Below, piece after piece: positions 10,017 through 23,496 of a DNA stretch of 32,161 nucleotides. Position numbers and translations under genes: made by a program. The stretch spans positions 1 through 32,161 of the forward strand of contig JAFIGT010000025.1 of assembly GCA_017849585.1 (NCBI GenBank). The letters run 5' to 3'. The notes under the pieces were generated by a model that made no database searches, was not told the origin of the DNA, and was given only the letters and a program-made list of their open reading frames with translations. The first letter of the stretch is position 1. Each line of letters begins with the position of its first letter. Origin of the DNA: Verrucomicrobium sp. Its GTDB lineage: Bacteria > Verrucomicrobiota > Verrucomicrobiia > Methylacidiphilales > UBA1321.

Positions 10017-10070
10017 AAGAATGCGGAGTTGCCCTAATGCGTGGGCTTTGCCATGCTGCGGGCAGTGGCG

Positions 10071-11162
10071 ATGAGTTCCGACTTTCAACAGCTAATCACC
10101 GAGGCGCGCGCGCAGAACCATCGCCGGCTTCATCCCCGTCGCGTGCTGGCGGCGAAACTCGCCACCTATCTTCCTGCTTCGATGCGATTCAAAGTCTGTG
10201 GTCTGCCCGGCGGATTGGCCGCAGCGGGCACGTGGAAGAAGCAGGAAGTGGCCCTGCCCAAGGAAGCGGGCGGCGGCACGGCATTTCTCGCCTCGATTGA
10301 AAACGGTATCGCGTGCGACTTCGGCGCGCATCTCACCGCCGATGGCCTGATCATTCCCGAGCTTTCCCCCGGCGCGAACGGCCCGATCATGGAACGCTTC
10401 CTCATCCACCAACGGATGCTGCCAGAAGTGACCCATCGCGCAGGCTCGGTCATCAGCCTCGCGCTGGACGGTCACAAAAATTTTTACCACTGGATGTACG
10501 AGGTATTGCCCCGCTGGCATATCATCAAGGCGTCCGGTCTCACCCACAACGGCGGCGTCTACGCTTTCCTGCAACACCGTTTCCATCGCGAAAGTCTCGC
10601 CCTGCTCGGCCTGGTTCCCGCGCGTATCGTGGACTCCGCCTCGCTGCCATTCCTGCGGGCGGATGTGCTGCAGGTGCCGTCCTTCGTGCGCAGTGATGAA
10701 CCGTGGATCTGCCAGTGGCTGCGCGACTCGCTGCTGGCCCCGGCGCTGAAGCACAGCTCGCTCCACACTCGCAAACGCCTTTACATTTCCCGCAAACAGG
10801 CGAACAGCCGCAAGATTGCCAATGAACCGGCGCTGGTGGAGCTGTTAAAGAAATACGATTTCACGGAAATCTGCCTCGAGGACTACGCGCTGAGCGGCCA
10901 GATCGCCCTCTTCCATGCCGCCCAGGCGATCGTGGCTCCGCACGGAGCGGGCCTGACGAATCTGACGTTCAGCGAGAGCGGCACCTTCGCGCTGGAGCTG
11001 ATTGCGCAAGGGCTGGAAGGGCCGTTCTACGAGCGGATCGCGAAGTCGCGCAACCTGCGCTATCAGCAAATCCGTTGTTCTCTGCAAAATCCCGCCGATC
11101 TCTACGGCAGCGATATCCACGTCGATCTCGAAGCCGTGAAAACCGCCCTGTCGCAGTTGTAA
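10071..11162 (+). CDS. glycosyltransferase family 61 (DUF563-type) protein
   Basis: Family 61 enzymes transfer sugars to cell-surface polysaccharides or glycoproteins. The marks here are NFYHWMYEVLPRWHI in the middle, the basic segment RKRLYISRKQANSRKI, and HGAGLTNLTFSESGTFALEL near the C-terminus, which matches the family pattern of a Gly-Ala-Gly loop followed by a Gly-rich turn and a Glu. The length is about 363 residues from the ATG at 10071. An ATG at 10053 and a GTG at 10041 are in frame and equally possible. There is no signal peptide or membrane helix, so it is likely cytoplasmic. It is isolated from any polysaccharide cluster and ends at a strong hairpin. Confidence 0.8.
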   Translation: MSSDFQQLITEARAQNHRRLHPRRVLAAKLATYLPASMRFKVCGLPGGLAAAGTWKKQEVALPKEAGGGTAFLASIENGIACDFGAHLTADGLIIPELSPGANGPIMERFLIHQRMLPEVTHRAGSVISLALDGHKNFYHWMYEVLPRWHIIKASGLTHNGGVYAFLQHRFHRESLALLGLVPARIVDSASLPFLRADVLQVPSFVRSDEPWICQWLRDSLLAPALKHSSLHTRKRLYISRKQANSRKIANEPALVELLKKYDFTEICLEDYALSGQIALFHAAQAIVAPHGAGLTNLTFSESGTFALELIAQGLEGPFYERIAKSRNLRYQQIRCSLQNPADLYGSDIHVDLEAVKTALSQL

Positions 11163-14192: not shown

Positions 14193-16457
14193 CTACGGTG
14201 TCTTGTTGACCAGAGCATTCTTTTCATTGAGGAGTGCCGCGTAGTCAACGAGGATGTTTACGGCCTCATCCAGTTGGGGGTCCACGGTGGGATCGTCTTC
14301 CAGCAATTCGCCTTCCTTGTCCTTGTCATCATCCACCGGGGCGGCCGCTGTCTTGACGGTCTGGATCTTCTCCAGCGGGGTGTTCTTGTCGACATCCGCA
14401 AGGGTCAGCTCATAAATCTTGTCGCGTGGCACGCCGCGGTGACTGCGCTCCTGCTTGCGGGTGGCCGCTTGGGCGAGAAGATCCGCCTTTTCCTTTTTAC
14501 GGGCTTCTTCGTTGAGCGAAATGCTCTTGTCGGCGAGACGTTTCTTCAGCACCTCGATGTCGTCACGGACGTAGGAGAAATCCTTCGACAAGGCCACGCG
14601 CTGGCCGGAGCGGCGGGCGAGTTCCGCCACATAGGGGGCGGCGAGATTGTAATTGTCGTAGTCAACCCGGTTGACCTCGTCATACGGCAGGCAGCTCGTG
14701 AGGGTGCGTTCGCCGAGCTCCATGTAATCCAGCAGCGACGGCAGGGTGAGATCCGGAACAACACCTTTTTTCTGCGTGGAACCGCCGGCAATGCGGTAGA
14801 ACTTCTGCACGGTGAGCTTGAGGTTGCCGGGATCGCCATCGAATCCGAAGCCAACCCAGCGGTCGAGCGGCAGCAGGGTCTGGACGGTGCCTTTGCCGTG
14901 CGTGCTGGAATCGCCAATGATCACGGCGCGGTTGTAATCCTGCAAGGCACCCGCGACGATTTCCGAAGCCGAGGCGCTGAGATGCCCCACCAGCACGACG
15001 AGCGGACCGGAGTAAAGCTGGGCGCTGTCATCATCGCGCAGGGTCGTGATCTGGCCGTTGCCGTTGCGCACCTGAACAACCGGTCCCTGCCGAATGAAAA
15101 GCCCGGTGAGATCGATGGCTTGGTCGAGGAGCCCACCGCCGTTGCGGCGCAGGTCGAGAATGATACCGGCCACCTGCTCGCGCTTGAGACGCTCAATGAG
15201 CTTCGCCACGTCGCGCACGGTATTGTCATAGAACTGCGGCAGATTGATCACACCCACGCGGATGACAGTGCCATTGGGGCCGGGATGCTCGAAGATCTGC
15301 GCCTTGGCGAATTGCTCGGAGAGCTTGATTTCGTCGCGGGTCAGGACCACTTCCTTACGCATGGAGGCATCGGTCTGCCCAGCGGGAATGACGGAAAGGC
15401 GGACCTTCGTGCCACGCTTGCCGCGGATGAGATCGACGACCTTGTTGAGTTTCATGTCGATCGTATCGACGAATTCGCCGTCGCCCTGCGCGACACCGAT
15501 GATGCGGTCGCCCGCCTTCAACTTCTTGCTCGATTCGGCGGGACCGCCGGGGACGAGGCGTTCGATCTTGGCGTAGCCATCATCGGAACGCAGCACGGCT
15601 CCGATGCCGGAGAGCTTGAGCTTGATCGCGTTGATGTTGAAATTCTCCGCGTCGTCGGGAGTCATGTAGTCCGAGTGCGGATCATACGCGTGAGCGAGAC
15701 CGTTGAGGTAGGTCTGAAGTACTTCGTTTTCGTCCATCTCCAACGTGTATTTGCGCAGGTTGTTGTAACGGCGGGTGATCTTCTTGAGCACATCCTCCGG
15801 TTTTTCCTTGGTCAATTTACCCTGGAGAATTTCAAATTTAATGCGGCTGCGCCAGAGCTGCTCGGCCTCGGCTTCGTCCTTGGGGAAGGGCACCTTGGCG
15901 CGGTCGGGAGTAAACCGATCCGTCCCGGAGAAATTGTACGGTTCCTTGAGGAGTTTTTCGACAAGCTTGAGGCGCTGGTCGAGTCGCTCGCAAAAGCGTT
16001 GGAAGATCACGAAAGCCGGAGAGGCGTCACCGCGGACAGTAAACTTATCGAGTTCGTTGCCGTAGCGGGCGAGGAACTCATCAAGGTCGCTCTGGAGGAA
16101 AATCAGGTGCGAGTAATCGAGCGCATCCATGTAGCCCTTCACCATCTTTTGCGACATCTGGTTGTCGAACGGCTGCTGGTTGTAGTGATACTGCTCCAAA
16201 ATACGACCCACGAGCTGGGCAATCTTGCCATTACGGGCAGGTTTTTTCTCAATGGAACTGGCCGTCGCCGCCGCAGATGGCGTTGTTGCGACAGCTGCCT
16301 TGGCGGGTTCTGCCAGAAGCTGCGCCGGTTTGGGCGTCGCCTGGGCCTTGGCATCCGTCTGGGCGATGGCCGTGGCTAGAAGGCCGACGCCACAAGCACC
16401 CAAAGCAAAGAAGGACAAGGTCAAGAGACCGAGGGCGGAACGCCGCAGTTTATTCAT
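14193..16457 (-). CDS. prc: carboxy-terminal processing (tail-specific) protease Prc
   Basis: This periplasmic S41 serine protease degrades proteins from their C-termini and trims envelope proteins. The 754-residue product has a signal sequence (about 1-32, ending near ATAIAQ), an N-terminal helical domain, a PDZ domain around [26 protein letters not shown], and the catalytic S41 domain. S496 in SASASE and K522 in HGKGTVQ are the expected Ser-Lys dyad. The Ser-Lys spacing is one residue longer than in E. coli Prc. The long C-terminal domain ends in an acidic segment ([14 protein letters not shown]). Its ATG overlaps the serS stop by four bases (ATGA), so translation is probably coupled. Confidence 0.95.
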
Positions 16458-17728
16458 ATCGAGTCACTTCCAAAGTAAGGCTGCAATTTTTTCGGGATCT
16501 TGACGCTTCCGTCCGCTTGTTGATGGGTCTCCAGCAAAGCAATATACAACCGAGCCAGCGCCGTGCCAGAGCCGTTTAACGTGTGACAGAAAGTGTTCTT
16601 CCCGCTCTTATCTTTATAGCGCAGGTTCATGCGGCGCGCTTGAAAATCTTCGAAATTGCTGCACGAGGAAACCTCGAGCCAATTCTGCAGGCCGGGCGCC
16701 CACACTTCGATGTCGTAGCATTTCGCCGCGCCGAAACCGAGATCGCCCGTGCACAGGGTGATCACGCGATAGTTCAATTCCAAGTCGGTGAGCACGCGCT
16801 CGGCGTGGCCGACTAGCGTTTCGAGCTGCGCGTAGGAATCCTCGGGTTTGACAATGTGGACGAGCTCGACCTTGTCAAACTGGTGCACGCGGATCATGCC
16901 GCGCGTATCCTTGCCCGCGCTGCCGGCTTCGCGACGGAAACACGGGGTGTAGGCCGCGTAATGGATGGGGAGTTGCTCCTCGGTAAGAATCTCCTCGCGA
17001 TGCAGATTCGTCACGGGCACTTCCGCCGTGGGGACGAGGAACAAGTCCTCACCCTGCAAGCCGTACATGTCCTCTTCGAATTTCGGCAACTGACCCGTTC
17101 CCACCATGCACTCGCGGCGCACCATGAAGGGCGTGGCCACTTCGGTGTAACCGTGTTCGCGGGTATGGAGGTCGAGCAGGTAGTTCAGCAACGCACGCTC
17201 GAGCCGGGCGCCCGCACCGCGATAGACGATGAAACCGCTGCCGGAAATTTTCGTCGCCTGCGGGAAATTGAGCATCCCTTTTTTCTCGCCGATTTCCCAA
17301 TGGGTGAGCGCCTTGAAGGGGAGCACCACCTTTTCGCCAACCTGGCGCACAACGGGATTATCGTTCGCATCGACCCCGACGGGCACGCTGCTGTGGGGAA
17401 CGTTGTAAATCTGGAGCAGGAGAGCTTCCTGTTTCGCTTCGACGTCGGCAATTTCCTTGTCGGCCTCGGCAATAAGATCGGAAAGCCCCTTCATCTTGGC
17501 CTTCAATTCTTCGGCGGCGGCTTTCTCACCCTTGGCCATCATGCCGCCGATCTGCTTGCTGGCGGCGTTGCGCTCGCTTTTGCGGGTCTCGTTGAGCGTG
17601 AGTAACTCGCGGCGCTTCTTGTCCTGGGCCAAAAGGGTATCAATATGAACTTCATCGCCCCGGTTGCGGGTGGCGAGCCGGGCGCGGATTTCCTCCGGCT
17701 TTTCGCGTATAATCTTGATGTCGAGCAT
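16454..17728 (-). CDS. serS: seryl-tRNA synthetase
   Basis: A class II synthetase that charges tRNA-Ser. The N-terminal coiled-coil arm (about residues 30-100, rich in Lys and Glu) binds the tRNA long arm. Motif 2 is FRREAGSAGKDTRGMIRVHQF. Motif 3 is NGSGTALARLYIALLE, with SCSNFEDFQARRMNLRY before it. The length is about 424 residues. The ATG at 17728 is preferred to an in-frame GTG three codons upstream. It is the first gene of a serS-prc-infA-yajQ cluster. A weak promoter TTGCAC-N15-TATAGG precedes it. Confidence 0.97.
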   Translation of the reverse strand: MLDIKIIREKPEEIRARLATRNRGDEVHIDTLLAQDKKRRELLTLNETRKSERNAASKQIGGMMAKGEKAAAEELKAKMKGLSDLIAEADKEIADVEAKQEALLLQIYNVPHSSVPVGVDANDNPVVRQVGEKVVLPFKALTHWEIGEKKGMLNFPQATKISGSGFIVYRGAGARLERALLNYLLDLHTREHGYTEVATPFMVRRECMVGTGQLPKFEEDMYGLQGEDLFLVPTAEVPVTNLHREEILTEEQLPIHYAAYTPCFRREAGSAGKDTRGMIRVHQFDKVELVHIVKPEDSYAQLETLVGHAERVLTDLELNYRVITLCTGDLGFGAAKCYDIEVWAPGLQNWLEVSSCSNFEDFQARRMNLRYKDKSGKNTFCHTLNGSGTALARLYIALLETHQQADGSVKIPKKLQPYFGSDSI

Positions 17729-17742
17729 GGAAAGCACAACAG

Positions 17743-17813: not shown

Positions 17814-19031
17814 CTACGGAAAAAACCACATCCGGAAGGCAGCAATATCGATCCAGAGCGAAAGCGCGACGTAGAAGAGCGCCAGACCGATTTCCACTCG
17901 CCGCGGCAACGGGTGACGGAACGCCAGAAACAGCGCGAACGGTACGATATAATAGCGTGGCTCCACGTACGGCAGAACCGCCACCGACAGCAATGCGATT
18001 GGCAGCAACCACCGCCACCGCTCCTGCAAAAACGGCGTCAAGAACCAGCCCGCCAGGCCGAGCGGAATCACCGCCAACGCCACCACCCGCGCCCACGGCT
18101 GCGTCGCCACCGCGTAGAGCACGATATTGTGGAGCACGTAATCCAGATTGATCTTGTTGTAGAGACTCGACAGCTCGTACGTCAGCCCGAATAACGCCCA
18201 CGACACCGCCAGCACCAGCACCGTCCGCAAACGAAAGCCGCGATCCGACCGCCACCGTTGCCCCGCGAGACGCAGGCCGCGCACACAGTCCGGCAGAAAC
18301 AGCAAACAAACCGTGAACAGGAAGAACCAGACATTCGTCAGATTCAACGTCACCTGCTGCACCGACCGATCCCCCAGCGCCACGCCGCCGTTCCACGCCA
18401 TGAAGATCAGGAACGCCGCGAACAACACGAGAAATGGCCAGGTCCGACCCAGACCGCGGTAGAACAGGCGACCGCGCTCCTTGGCTGCGAAATCACAGTA
18501 CGGTTTCATCAACGCCAGCCAGATCAATCCCGCCCAGAAAATATTCGGCTGCCGGATCAACACCGCCAGCGCCGCCGCCAGCGCGCAGGTTCCCGTTTTC
18601 TTCCGCAGCGCGAGCCACACCGCCAGCAGCACCGCCGCCAGCCCCCAGAGATCGGTGTAAACCAAAAACCAGTATGGGAACAGCAACGGGAACCATGCCA
18701 ATTGCACCGTGCGCCAATACCGTTCCCGGGCCCGCAACACCGTCATGATTTGGAAAAAGAAGAAGAGCGCCACCGCACCGCCCAAGAAGGAAAAGAACCG
18801 CAGTGCCACGAGCGATTCCGCGCCCGTAAGCGTCACCGGCACCGCCATGAGCGCGTGATAACCGGGAAAAGTGGTGAGATACGACACCCGCGTGAAATCC
18901 CCGTGCGCAAGCCGCAGGATCTGTTCGCCATGACCCCACTCGTCCACGAATCGCGGCCCCGTCCGAAAGATCCAGAACAGCATCAGCAAGGACGCGAGCA
19001 ACAGGCCAAAGAAAAGAAGGGGACGTTTCAT
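17814..19031 (-). CDS. multi-pass membrane protein, ALG10/DIE2-like glucosyltransferase (copy 2)
   Basis: The 405-residue protein has about ten membrane helices. After the first helix comes FVDEWGHGEQILRLAHGDF, then TTFPGYH (about residues 54-60). This is the layout of the DIE2/ALG10 family (GT59, GT-C fold): an Asp-Glu-x-x-His in the first lumenal loop, Gln, a Gly-x-Phe and a Thr-x-Pro-Gly motif. A later VLIRQPNIFWAGL matches the family Arg-x-x-Asn-Ile-x-Trp segment. ALG10 in eukaryotes adds the terminal glucose to the dolichol-linked oligosaccharide. The bacterial substrate is unknown, presumably a polyprenyl-phosphate sugar acting outside the inner membrane. It is the paralogue of the gene just upstream, 4 bases away. 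Confidence 0.75.
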   Translation of the reverse strand: MKRPLLFFGLLLASLLMLFWIFRTGPRFVDEWGHGEQILRLAHGDFTRVSYLTTFPGYHALMAVPVTLTGAESLVALRFFSFLGGAVALFFFFQIMTVLRARERYWRTVQLAWFPLLFPYWFLVYTDLWGLAAVLLAVWLALRKKTGTCALAAALAVLIRQPNIFWAGLIWLALMKPYCDFAAKERGRLFYRGLGRTWPFLVLFAAFLIFMAWNGGVALGDRSVQQVTLNLTNVWFFLFTVCLLFLPDCVRGLRLAGQRWRSDRGFRLRTVLVLAVSWALFGLTYELSSLYNKINLDYVLHNIVLYAVATQPWARVVALAVIPLGLAGWFLTPFLQERWRWLLPIALLSVAVLPYVEPRYYIVPFALFLAFRHPLPRRVEIGLALFYVALSLWIDIAAFRMWFFP

Positions 19032-19035
19032 GGTC

Positions 19036-20241
19036 TCACGGGAAATACAGCAGCCGGAAGGATGTCGACGTCAGCACCGCCGCGCCGATCGCATACAGCA
19101 CCGTCATGGTCCACTCCACCCGGCGCGAGAGCGGTTCGCGAAACGCGAGGAACAACGCGCATGCCGGCAGATAATAGCGCGGATCGATGTGGGGAATCAC
19201 CAACACCGACACCACCGCCAATAATCCCATCCAGCGCAGGCGTTCCTGCGCCAACGGCGTGAAGAACCATCCCGCCAAACCCAGCGGCAGAATCGCCAGC
19301 GCCACAAGCCGCGCCCACGGCTGCGTGGCCACCTGATACAGCACGATATTGTGGATCATGTAATCCATGTTGATGCGGTTGAAAATGTGCGCGAGGTGGA
19401 AAGTCGCACCAAAGATCAGCCACAGCACCACTACGATTCCCAAGCCCCGCCACACCGTGCGACGGCCCCGCGCCCAGATGACGCCCACAGCGCGACCGCA
19501 CTGGATTGGAAAGAAAATCACCACGAGCCCCAAAAAGAACCACACATTCGTGGGGTAGCACGACACCGGCACTTTTTCGCGCGGACCAATCGCCACGCCA
19601 CCGTTCCACACCACGAACGCCAAAAATCCCGCCGCCACCAACAGCAAGGGCCACGTCTGGCGCAGCACCTGTTGCAGCCACGGCCACCCCCGCTTCGCCT
19701 CGCGCAGATCACCCGCCACCATCACCCATAATAGCCAGCCCCACAGAATCGCCGGAGGCCGGATAACCACCGCCACCGCCAAAGCCAGCGCACACCACCC
19801 CGCCTTTTTGCGCAACGCGGCATCCACCGCCCCCAGCAGAAACACCACGCCCCAGACATCGCTATAGGCGAGAAAAAGAAACGGAAAGAACAGCGGGAAA
19901 AACGCATACTGCGCCGTCCGCACCCACCGCTCCTGCGGCCAGAGTTGACCCACAATCCGGTAAAAAAACACCACCCCGGCGAAACTCCCCAACAGCGTCA
20001 CCAACCGGATCATCGCCAGCGAATCATCCCCCACCAGATAAATCACCGCCCCCGCCAACGCGTGATAACCCGGCGTCATCGCCAATTCCGGGTCCAACGA
20101 GAAATCCCCATGCGAAAACCGCTGCACCTGAGGCGCATGCCACCGCTCGTCAATCAGCACGTGATGGTGGCGGTACCCCCACACCATCGCCAGCCACGAC
20201 GCCAGCAACAGACCGAAAAAGAGCGCCATCCGCATTTTCAT
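19036..20241 (-). CDS. multi-pass membrane protein, ALG10/DIE2-like glucosyltransferase (copy 1)
   Basis: This is a tandem paralogue of the next gene, about 401 residues. The first loop reads IDERWHAPQVQRFSHGDFSL, followed by DPELAMTPGYH, again the Asp-Glu-x-x-His and Thr-Pro-Gly pattern of ALG10/DIE2. The later segment is VVIRPPAILWGWLL, where the Asn of the ALG10 motif is replaced. The last 110 residues are collinear with the paralogue (shared blocks HNIVLY, VATQPWAR, GLAGWF, and a C-terminal YFP against FFP). The start is chosen at the ATG 20241. A GTG at 20250 and ATGs at 20235 and 20229 are also in frame. The N-terminal halves have diverged more, which suggests different acceptors. Confidence 0.75.
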   Translation of the reverse strand: MKMRMALFFGLLLASWLAMVWGYRHHHVLIDERWHAPQVQRFSHGDFSLDPELAMTPGYHALAGAVIYLVGDDSLAMIRLVTLLGSFAGVVFFYRIVGQLWPQERWVRTAQYAFFPLFFPFLFLAYSDVWGVVFLLGAVDAALRKKAGWCALALAVAVVIRPPAILWGWLLWVMVAGDLREAKRGWPWLQQVLRQTWPLLLVAAGFLAFVVWNGGVAIGPREKVPVSCYPTNVWFFLGLVVIFFPIQCGRAVGVIWARGRRTVWRGLGIVVVLWLIFGATFHLAHIFNRINMDYMIHNIVLYQVATQPWARLVALAILPLGLAGWFFTPLAQERLRWMGLLAVVSVLVIPHIDPRYYLPACALFLAFREPLSRRVEWTMTVLYAIGAAVLTSTSFRLLYFP

Positions 20242-20303
20242 CTCCCGCACTTAACCACGAGCGCCCCCTCAACGTCCAGCAGGTTGCGGGGTATTGCTCG
20301 CCC

Positions 20304-20332
20304 TTTACAAAGCCTCCTTTCCGCTCTAGTGT
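20304..20332 (+). promoter_or_regulatory. candidate promoter of the LeuC-type gene
   Basis: TTTACA (20304-20309), a 17-base spacer and TAGTGT (20327-20332). The -10 keeps the three most conserved positions (T, A and the final T). Nine bases separate it from the ATG, so the mRNA would have almost no leader, as for bioB. Confidence 0.4.
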
Positions 20333-20341
20333 AGACGCTCT

Positions 20342-21712
20342 ATGACACTGACGGAAAAAGTTCTGGCCCGCGCCGCTGGCAAGAAATATGTCCAGCCCGG
20401 CGACAACATCTGGGTCAATGCCGACGTACTCCTCACCCACGACGTCTGTGGACCGGGGACGATTGGCGTTTTCAAACGTGAATTCGGTAAGACGGCCAAG
20501 GTTTGGGACAAGAACAAGATCGTCATTATTCCCGACCATTACATCTTCACCGCCGACTCCCTTTCCAACCGCAATGTCGACATCCTGCGCGACTTCGTCC
20601 GCGAACAGGGCCTGCCCTATTTCTACGACGTGATCGACGACCCGAACGGTCACTGGATCTTTGACAAATCGAAGGGCCAGCTCGCCAAACAGTACGGCTC
20701 GCACTTCGCGGGCGTCTGCCACACCGCCATCGCGGCCAAGGGCCACACCCGCCCCGGCGAAATCCTCTTCGGCACCGACAGCCACACCTGCATGGCCGGC
20801 GCGTTCAACCAATTCGCCACCGGCATCGGCAACACCGACGCGGGCTTCATCATGGGCACCGGCAAGCTGCTCATCAAAGTCCCCGAGACGATGCGCTTCT
20901 ACCTCGAAGGCGCGCTCCCCAAGGGCGTCATGGGCAAAGACATCATCCTGCACATCATCGGCGAGATCGGTTTTGACGGCGCCACCTACCGCGCCATGCA
21001 GTACGAAGGCCCCGGCGCCTACAACCTGCCGATGGACGACCGCATGACGGTGACCAACATGGCCATCGAAGCGGGCGGCAAGAACGGCATCTTCCCGTAC
21101 GACGAGAAGTGCGCCGCCTACGTGAACGAGCGCACCAAGCTCAACGGCACGAAGAGCGACTACCAGCCCGTCGAACTCGATCAGGACCAGAAATTCATCT
21201 ACGACAAGGTCATCGACCTCTCCAAGCTCGAGCCCACCGTCGCGCAACACCCCGATCCGGGCAATCGCGCCCTGGCCAAGACTCTCGACAAGGTGAAACT
21301 CGACCGCGCCTACATCGGTTCCTGCACCGGCGGCAAGACCTCTGACTTCCTCGCCTTCGCGCAGATCGTCAAAGGCCACACCGTCAAGATCGACACCTTT
21401 GGCGTTCCCGCCACCCCGGAAGTGGTCTTCGACCTGAAGAACACCCAATGGGACGGCAAGAGCGTCTGGGACCACCTCGTCGGCGCTGGCGTCACGATGA
21501 CCGAAAACGCCTCGTGCGCGGCCTGCCTCGGCGGCCCCGTCGATACGTTCGGCCGCATGAACAAGCCGATGTCCTGCATCTCGGCCACGAACCGCAACTT
21601 CCCCGGCCGCATGGGCCACAAGGAATCGCGCGTTTACCTCGCCTCCCCGTACACCGTGGCGGCGTCGGCCCTGACCGGCCACATCACCGACCCCCGCGAG
21701 TACCTCTCGTAA
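20342..21712 (+). CDS. leuC: 3-isopropylmalate dehydratase large subunit (homoaconitase-type)
   Basis: This aconitase-superfamily protein isomerises 2- to 3-isopropylmalate (leucine synthesis) or a related hydroxyacid. The 4Fe-4S ligands are C328 (IGSCTGGK) and C392-x2-C395 (SCAACLGG). Substrate-binding motifs LFGTDSHTC (142-150) and NRNFPGRMG (418-426) are present. The short form (456 residues, no swivel domain) works with a separate LeuD, which is not next to it. The sequence resembles the archaeal/thermophile LeuC2-homoaconitase branch more than the enterobacterial LeuC, so homoaconitase or methylmalate-type activity cannot be excluded. It stands as a single gene with its own promoter candidate. 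Confidence 0.88.
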   Translation: MTLTEKVLARAAGKKYVQPGDNIWVNADVLLTHDVCGPGTIGVFKREFGKTAKVWDKNKIVIIPDHYIFTADSLSNRNVDILRDFVREQGLPYFYDVIDDPNGHWIFDKSKGQLAKQYGSHFAGVCHTAIAAKGHTRPGEILFGTDSHTCMAGAFNQFATGIGNTDAGFIMGTGKLLIKVPETMRFYLEGALPKGVMGKDIILHIIGEIGFDGATYRAMQYEGPGAYNLPMDDRMTVTNMAIEAGGKNGIFPYDEKCAAYVNERTKLNGTKSDYQPVELDQDQKFIYDKVIDLSKLEPTVAQHPDPGNRALAKTLDKVKLDRAYIGSCTGGKTSDFLAFAQIVKGHTVKIDTFGVPATPEVVFDLKNTQWDGKSVWDHLVGAGVTMTENASCAACLGGPVDTFGRMNKPMSCISATNRNFPGRMGHKESRVYLASPYTVAASALTGHITDPREYLS

Positions 21713-22195: not shown

Positions 22196-22672
22196 ATGAA
22201 CATTGCTGCTGCCACCTCTGCCGACCTGCCAGCCCTGCTCGAAATCCAGCACGCTGCGTTTCGTGCGGAAGCCGACCAATACGGCGACTGCAGCATCCCG
22301 CCACTCCGCCAAACGGTGGACGATCTGCACGCCGATCTCGCCACGAAAACTTTCCTCAAGGCCACCGACGAGACGGGACAACTCCTCGGCTCCATCCGCG
22401 CCTTCGAAAAAGACGGCGTCTGCCACCTCGAAAAACTCAGCATCGATCCCGCCCACCAACGGCGTGGCTATGGCGCTCAACTCCTCCTCGCGGTGGAATC
22501 AAAATTCCCCCACGCCACCCGCTTCGAACTCTTCACCGGGCATCGCTCTGAAGGCAATATTCGCCTCTATCAAAAACTCGGCTATCGCACCGTGCGCGCA
22601 GAGGAAATCAGTTGCCGCCTGACTCTCGTCCATATGGAAAAACGCCGCACCCCACCCGGCAGCACGTCATGA
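22196..22672 (+). CDS. GNAT family N-acetyltransferase
   Basis: The 158-residue protein is a single GNAT domain. The acetyl-CoA pyrophosphate loop is QRRGYG (88-93), after the strand CHLEKLSIDPAHQ. The C-terminal part FELFTGHRSEGNIRLYQKLGYRTV is typical. The substrate is unknown. Its stop overlaps the ATG of the following glycosidase gene by four bases (ATGA), so the two are translationally coupled. Confidence 0.9.
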   Translation: MNIAAATSADLPALLEIQHAAFRAEADQYGDCSIPPLRQTVDDLHADLATKTFLKATDETGQLLGSIRAFEKDGVCHLEKLSIDPAHQRRGYGAQLLLAVESKFPHATRFELFTGHRSEGNIRLYQKLGYRTVRAEEISCRLTLVHMEKRRTPPGSTS

Positions 22673-23496
22673 TTCGCCTGGGCCTCGTGCTGCTCCTCAG
22701 CCTCGTCTGCGCTCACGCCGAGACGGAATCGCCCGGCCCCGGCCTCACACTGGAAACCGAGACCCGCACCGCGCCGCGACCGATGCGTCTGCATTGGCTC
22801 ACCGCCGATCTGAACACACCCGGTCTCGCCCTCGCCTTTTCCCCCGTCGATCCCACGTCCTCCTCCCCCGCGAAAGTGCTCGCCGCGAAACCGACCGAAC
22901 GGCTCCTCACTCTCGGCTGGAAAGTGCTCCTCAATGGCGATGCGTTCTACGTGATCGGCGATGAAAAGAAACGTTACCCCGCCGTGGGCGATCTGCTCGC
23001 GCTCCAAGGCTATGCCGTGTTCGAAGGAAAACGGTATGGTCAACGCTCGCCCAACAACGGCACGTTCTACGTCCTGAACGACCGAAAGACCATGGGCATC
23101 ACCTATGACGCGCCTCCGAAAAACACGTGGGGCGCGGTCGGCGGCTACCGCATCGTCTTGCACGACGGCAAAATCGGCAGCCACATCGACAACACACGAC
23201 TCCATCCCCGCAGCGTCATCGGCTTCAATAATGCCACCCGACAGGTCTACTTCCTCGTCGTCGATGGACGCCAACCCGGCCGCAGCGAAGGAGCCACGGA
23301 ACAGGAACTCGGCGAATGGATGCTGGCACGCGGCGCAACCGATGCCCTCAGTCTCGACGGCGGCGGTTCCTCCGTGCTCATCATCGAACAAGACGGCGGC
23401 GCCCGCGTCGTGAACCGCCCCGTCGGCGTCTGGGATCAACCCGGCACCGTCCGCTGCATCGGCAATGCCGTGGGACTGACACTTAAAACGGAGTGA
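22669..23496 (+). CDS. phosphodiester glycosidase family (NAGPA/DUF2233) protein
   Basis: The 275-residue exported protein has a signal peptide of about 17 residues (ending AHA). The domain is that of N-acetylglucosamine-1-phosphodiester alpha-N-acetylglucosaminidase. LLNGDAFYV (88-95) corresponds to the family Asn-Gly-x-Phe motif, HPRSVIGF is at 179-186, and SLDGGGSS at 228-235 is the diagnostic loop. Bacterial members are thought to act on cell-wall or exopolysaccharide phosphodiesters. The reading frame is open upstream, but the ATG at 22669 gives the signal peptide and the coupled overlap with the acetyltransferase gene. Confidence 0.88.
   Translation: MIRLGLVLLLSLVCAHAETESPGPGLTLETETRTAPRPMRLHWLTADLNTPGLALAFSPVDPTSSSPAKVLAAKPTERLLTLGWKVLLNGDAFYVIGDEKKRYPAVGDLLALQGYAVFEGKRYGQRSPNNGTFYVLNDRKTMGITYDAPPKNTWGAVGGYRIVLHDGKIGSHIDNTRLHPRSVIGFNNATRQVYFLVVDGRQPGRSEGATEQELGEWMLARGATDALSLDGGGSSVLIIEQDGGARVVNRPVGVWDQPGTVRCIGNAVGLTLKTE

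Follow-up and report, generated by a model that had tools for sequence, protein, structure and literature searches.

The last glucose of the eukaryotic N-glycan precursor is added by ALG10. The question raised by the locus described here is whether two adjacent bacterial genes encode true relatives of this enzyme and, if so, what they might do in a bacterium. The window, that is the whole stretch of 32,161 nucleotides that was analysed, is one contig (C6) of a 4.79-Mb genome that is 96% complete in 43 contigs. An earlier, sequence-only reading had claimed two tandem homologues of ALG10/DIE2 within it. Both open reading frames, termed here gene a and gene b (Table 1), are present and both score above the cut-off of the family; they are separated by 4 bp, are 46-47% identical to each other, and are the only PF04922 members found in this genome. 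Gene b has alternative ATG starts at 20241, the boundary adopted in the earlier reading, 20235 and 20229; that at 20235 is absent from the copy in Verrucomicrobia bacterium Tous-C9LFEB (hereafter Tous). The pair is flanked by serS (16454-17737, minus strand) and a leuC-like gene of the aconitase family (20342-21712, plus strand), and the gap between gene b and the latter is the probable start of a predicted two-gene operon. Long plus-strand ORFs opposite the pair (18258-19262) resemble GC-rich shadow ORFs and are without membrane character; a shadow-ORF explanation of genes a and b themselves was rejected.

Table 1. Features of the gene pair, in coordinates of the window
Feature	Coordinates	Strand	Basis
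Gene a, ALG10/DIE2-like GT-C protein, 405 aa	17814..19031	-	PF04922 score, dN/dS, modelled fold
Gene b, ALG10/DIE2-like paralogue, 404 aa from GTG 20250	19036..20250	-	PF04922 score, dN/dS
DEWGH, first extracytoplasmic loop of gene a (D30, E31, H34)	18930..18944	-	alignment
DERWH, first extracytoplasmic loop of gene b	20137..20151	-	translation and alignment
RQPNIFW of gene a (ALG10 RQxNxxW); RPPAILW in gene b	18534..18554	-	alignment
NGGVALGDRS of gene a; NGGVAIGPRE in gene b	18363..18392	-	alignment
C-terminal RYY of gene a (R359-Y361); kept in gene b; human RYF (provisional sequence)	17949..17957	-	alignment
91-bp gap between gene b and divergent leuC-like gene (putative operon start)	20251..20341		comparison by eye; very similar in Tous relative

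Relatives of the pair are rare and are carried by five genomes from four families of Verrucomicrobiota: that of the window (G000), G002 (taken to be Tous), G025, G488 and G063. A Pfam search places both proteins in the DIE2_ALG10 family (PF04922/GT59), gene a with 113.6 bits (E 1.8e-32) and gene b with 89.9 bits (E 2.8e-25), against a curated cut-off of 27 bits. The same search returned no second Pfam family for either at E <= 1, including PMT, PMT_2, ArnT and GT57/ALG6; neither protein is thus placed in another GT-C family, and the profile search proposed in the earlier reading bears out its assignment. NCBIfam returned no family at E <= 1 for genes a and b or for the G025 and G063 proteins. 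In the reverse direction, a profile built from seven bacterial proteins scored a human ALG10 sequence that did not come from a database record (here termed provisional) at 94.3 bits, with an E-value of 1.1e-28 among 211 entries, while the 210 control entries (200 shuffles of the human sequence and ten other proteins from carrier loci, seven of which are GT-C-like) all scored at most 1.1 bits, and chance similarity to ALG10 was rejected on this basis. The reverse test relies on the provisional human sequence, whereas the forward Pfam result does not. Genes a and b are true relatives of eukaryotic ALG10, a homology supported by the profile, by the reverse profile with its provisional human sequence, and by the GT-C fold. 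Identity to the provisional human protein is only about 22%, a level that does not establish the sugar or the linkage.

The motifs of the two proteins agree closely with those first described. Gene a carries DEWGH, a glutamine (in GEQ), GDF, TFPG and RQPNIFW, and gene b carries DERWH, a glutamine (in APQ) and GDF. Eight of the nine motif statements of the sequence-only reading hold, among them that one protein, gene a, keeps Arg-x-x-Asn-Ile-x-Trp; the exception is Thr-x-Pro-Gly in gene b, where AMTPG stands instead. That reading is silent on two further departures of gene b, RPPAILW in place of the RQxN segment and GPREK in place of GDRS. Residues D30, E31, H34, P56, Y125, D127, R160, W166, N214, G220 and R359-Y361 (gene a numbering) are invariant in all seven bacterial sequences, and a YT/SD motif is likewise conserved through the set. 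When the provisional human ALG10 is included, all eight sequences share the acid pair and histidine of DExxH (D30, E31 and H34), a proline, LxY, the arginine and tryptophan of RQxNxxW, the asparagine of NGG, and RY. The glutamine that follows DExxH is not retained in the G025 protein. Crude hydropathy gives 9-12 transmembrane segments in five bacterial members. In GT-C enzymes, the active site lies in the first extracytoplasmic loop, which carries an acid pair. A loop model of the fold (PMC6801728) likewise locates the active site there, and gives ALG10 13 transmembrane segments in the order 1-8-4.

The fold was modelled for gene a with AlphaFold2. An alignment of six sequences gave a mean pLDDT of 58.9, and one of seven sequences (model med7207fe1458) a mean pLDDT of 63.5 and a pTM of 0.68, a modest confidence. 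Foldseek returned no match at E <= 0.001 with either model; its best rows were nonetheless GT-C chains (the top seven with one model, the top eight with the other), followed by GPCRs and transporters. Ranks 2 and 8 of the top-eight search are translocon entries, the chain in question presumably being a subunit of OST. VIA-align 2 was used to realign 999 of Foldseek's best 1000 chains with the gene a model. Among the 50 matches listed, ranks 1-35 are all GT-C entries, with Z between 6.4 and 13.9 (at least 8.5 in 33 of the 35), and rank 36 is unrelated (Z 5.8). The GT-C matches comprise GPI mannosyltransferase I, Pmt4, Pmt1-Pmt2, ArnT, ALG6 with Dol-P-Glc, OST, AglB, ALG3, ALG9, AftA/B, Emb, PimE and a GPI transamidase chain; yeast ALG6 with Dol-P-Glc aligns over 255 residues at Z 12.2 and rmsd 5.0. 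As helical bundles may reach Z 13-14 by chance with this method, it is the coherence of the match list, rather than any single score, that points to a GT-C fold in gene a, and on these models the fold is supported. Sequence searches of the PDB with gene a, gene b, the six-row profile and the provisional human ALG10 gave no match at E <= 10, so that the comparison with a solved ALG10 proposed in the earlier reading could not be made directly.

What sugar donor such enzymes might use is suggested by the gene context of other carriers. In G025, genes for an ICMT/PEMT-like protein, a PMT_2 GT-C protein, a GT2 protein and the ALG10-like protein run head to tail with overlaps. In the PDB the GT2 protein matches sll0501 (5.9e-86), which we take to be GtrB, ArnC (1e-48) and Dol-P-Man synthase (6e-17), the first two being its closest solved relatives. 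GtrB loads glucose onto polyprenyl phosphate. Contig C41 of the window's genome carries two genes of the GtrB type; they show 44% and 37% identity with the GT2 of G025, and each has sll0501 as its closest solved relative (2.1e-84 and 1.4e-76). A search for polyprenyl-phosphate sugar synthases, as the earlier reading had suggested, is thus positive. A GtrB-type gene at E <= 1e-40 is also found in all four other carriers, but three of four non-carrier genomes have one too, so its presence is not specific to carriers; the link between an ALG10-like gene and a GtrB-type synthase in one gene string is seen in a single genome, G025. Around one of the C41 genes lies what reads from its translations as a surface-glycan-like cluster (G000:C41 L048:8226-15587), with UDP-galactopyranose-mutase-like, methyltransferase-like, epimerase-like and GT2-like genes and a GT-C-like protein.

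The lipid-linked glycan pathway that had been proposed stands in part. A route to a lipid-linked sugar donor is supported by the two GtrB-type synthases and by the G025 gene string, whereas a whole pathway resembling that of N-glycans is not supported: the oligosaccharyltransferase family STT3/PglB/AglB (PF02516) gave no match in the window's genome, 96% complete, and was positive in four of 14 control genomes, all archaea, the one glycan gene in the neighbourhood of the pair is a GT61 gene at a distance of 6.6 kb, and GtrB-type synthases are not specific to carriers. This GT61 glycosyltransferase gene (10041-11162) and a phosphodiester glycosidase (NAGPA) gene (22612-23496) flank the pair, each less than 7 kb from it.

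The reading preferred here, and considered fairly probable, is that genes a and b encode periplasmic transferases that would cap a glycan of the cell surface or of a protein, with an undecaprenyl-phosphate-hexose, probably carrying glucose, as donor; a role in N-glycosylation is not the best reading. The presumed two-gene operon would encode GT-C membrane glycosyltransferases, and a GtrB-type enzyme would make the polyprenyl-phosphate-hexose donor in the cytoplasm. A single hexose, probably glucose, would be taken from undecaprenyl-phosphate-hexose at the periplasmic face of the inner membrane, on which the DExxH loop would lie, and transferred with inversion to the terminus of another glycan. 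This acceptor would most likely be a polysaccharide of the cell surface, an intermediate linked to a lipid or the glycan of an exported protein. Gene a retains the ALG10 motifs; gene b, in which RQxN and GDRS are changed, would probably use another acceptor or donor. According to PMC10920833, GT59 enzymes are inverting and use lipid-phosphate-monosaccharide donors, and by analogy with GT59 we infer both properties for gene a.

Comparison with known systems shows where such enzymes may depart from their relatives. With ALG10/DIE2 the proteins share a score above the family cut-off, collinearity over their length, DExxH, RY near the C-terminus and, in gene a, RQxNxxW and NGGxxxGDRS. ALG10/DIE2 is, however, a eukaryotic Dol-P-Glc:Glc2Man9GlcNAc2-PP-Dol alpha-1,2-glucosyltransferase, and such an acceptor is not expected in a bacterium; moreover the bacterial proteins are about 70 residues shorter, are about 22% identical to the provisional human sequence, occur in tandem with gene b diverged in two motifs, and are found in a genome without STT3. 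ALG6/ALG8 (GT57, PDB 6snh) have the GT-C fold in common (Z 12.2) and the same type of donor would be expected, but there is no sequence-family match at E <= 1. In the GtrA/GtrB/Gtr(type) systems of O-antigen glucosylation, undecaprenyl-phosphate-glucose is made by a GtrB-type GT2, and a GtrB-type GT2 likewise stands beside the G025 gene. Unlike in those systems, no GtrA is recognised beside the genes, and the transferase here belongs to the ALG10 family.

The proteins might instead be protein O-glycosyltransferases of the PMT type (GT39), or ArnT-like modifiers of lipid A (GT83), that merely resemble ALG10. Structures of PMT and ArnT, which also use polyprenyl-phosphate sugar donors, fit the gene a model no worse than that of ALG6 (Z 12-14), and in both G025 (PMT_2) and G488 another GT-C gene directly precedes the ALG10-like gene, which may mean that proteins are the target of the pathway. 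Against this, neither protein matches a PMT, PMT_2 or ArnT family model at E <= 1, and the neighbouring GT-C proteins score below 1 bit with the bacterial ALG10 profile; such an identity is unlikely. The acceptor of GT39 and GT83 enzymes would be expected to differ.

The surroundings of the more distant members are varied. In G488, genes for O-antigen-ligase-like, rhodanese, MauE, ICMT-like (so labelled for its resemblance to that of G025) and GT-C proteins precede the ALG10-like gene. The latter and the GT-C gene share 4 bp, and RHS-like and DUF1573 genes come next. A search without a positive control found no relative of this companion GT-C protein in the window's genome. In G063 a gene read from its translation as pilin-like lies upstream, a TMEM260-like GT-C gene is convergent and a DUF1573 gene lies 5 kb on. 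DUF1573 genes are thus found within about 5 kb in all three loci (G025, G488 and G063), which may be chance, and none was recognised among 25 window ORFs scanned. Two distant carriers (L031:2319-16204 and L017:626-9478) share ICMT-like methyltransferase, GT-C, ALG10-like, RHS-like exported and DUF1573 proteins, to which L031 adds an O-antigen ligase, rhodanese and MauE.

Members of the family are scattered. Strong full-length members occur in three of 62 genomes of the order (G000, G002 and G025), and in the class G488 joins them, with six of 384 genomes matching at E <= 0.001, two of the six partially (21-24 bits). Across the phylum five of 387 genomes matched PF04922, of which G000 and G063 exceeded the cut-off, and five of 387 matched the seven-row profile, three of them partially (22-26 bits) and G000 and G063 again as strong members; the order, class and phylum samples overlap. 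Partial low-scoring matches (G129, G163, G223, G527, G528, G147, G425 and G438) were left out as members. No ALG10-like member was found in 14 named control genomes, a wider scan of genome contigs returned the Tous locus only, and no relative was found in a scan of viral contigs or by tblastn of the G063 protein against plasmids.

A 2016 study (PMC4973528) reported that lumenal ALG3, 6, 8, 9, 10 and 12 seem to be confined to eukaryotes and that nearly all prokaryotic sequences recovered in its profile searches were distant PMT or DUF2029 proteins. The proteins described here resemble ALG10 far more than those do, and searches of the open-licence literature yielded no paper in which a bacterial ALG10 is named. 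The bacterial branch thus bears on the origin of the lumenal ALG enzymes, and its full-length members make the origin and the minimal mechanism of ALG10 testable; one of them stands beside a GtrB-type synthase. A bacterial ALG10 may also be easier to express and solve, and the PDB search with the provisional human query turned up no solved ALG10. It is conceivable, if rather improbable, that an old bacterial branch, now scattered in Verrucomicrobiota and in one case joined to a GtrB-type donor synthase, is the stock of eukaryotic ALG10, which would then not have arisen inside eukaryotes; the final step in assembling the N-glycan precursor would in that case be of bacterial origin. Transfer in the other direction, from a eukaryote to Verrucomicrobiota and old enough for the observed divergence, would fit the patchy distribution over five carrier genomes, and in a small unrooted tree, which is no test of origin, G063 groups with the provisional human sequence with a support of 0.85. 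The bacterial sequences are, however, 23-36% identical to one another (outside close pairs and the a/b pair) and 19-24% identical to the provisional human one; they differ among themselves almost as much as from the human protein, which makes a recent transfer unlikely, so that any transfer must be old. As composition is also host-like, this origin is considered quite unlikely.

Both genes are under purifying selection. Relative to the Tous copies, gene a has a dN of 0.019 and a dS of 0.239 (dN/dS about 0.08), and gene b a dN of 0.032 and a dS of 0.230 (dN/dS about 0.14). This bears on whether gene b, or both proteins, might be non-catalytic partner subunits, as PIGU is in the GPI transamidase. 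RQxN and GDRS are lost in gene b, which diverges at both motifs together with its Tous orthologue (GPREK in gene b), and chain U of GPI transamidase 7wld, which we take to be PIGU, is among the fold matches of gene a (Z 10.1). Nevertheless, neither protein has changed its first-loop acid pair, the presumed catalytic element of GT-C enzymes, and both genes evolve slowly; a subunit role is judged decidedly doubtful. Since gene b has retained both the acid pair and RYY and shows purifying selection, it is better read as a paralogue of changed specificity than as a relic, and is predicted to be probably specialised for another acceptor or donor.

Eukaryotic contamination of the assembly, which might be suspected of a family described as eukaryotic in PMC4973528, was rejected as next to impossible: it is refuted by the same pair lying next to leuC in the independent Tous genome, third-position GC (0.796 in gene a, 0.788 in gene b) is inside the range of 13 other window genes measured (0.739-0.871), and the genes have no introns and are flanked by bacterial serS and an aconitase-family gene.

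In Tous, named Candidatus Verrucococcus diazotrophicus in PMC5673642 and discussed together with Methylacidiphilales genomes in PMC8706344, the pair is again beside a leuC-like gene, and no serS ORF was seen downstream within its 12.5-kb locus. In G001, of the same genus and 79% complete, no ALG10-like gene was found and a HAD-type hydrolase, as read from its translation, lies upstream of serS. With the pair present where the serS ORF is not seen, and serS accompanied in G001 by another gene, the pair is accessory.

A further GT-C protein, cut by a contig end in G129:C13 (L020:8656-10058), matches ALG3 (PF05208) with 23.9 bits against a cut-off of 23.6 and ALG10 below its cut-off. Several glycosyltransferase-like genes adjoin it, and it may be a further case of a lumenal ALG enzyme with a relative in bacteria.
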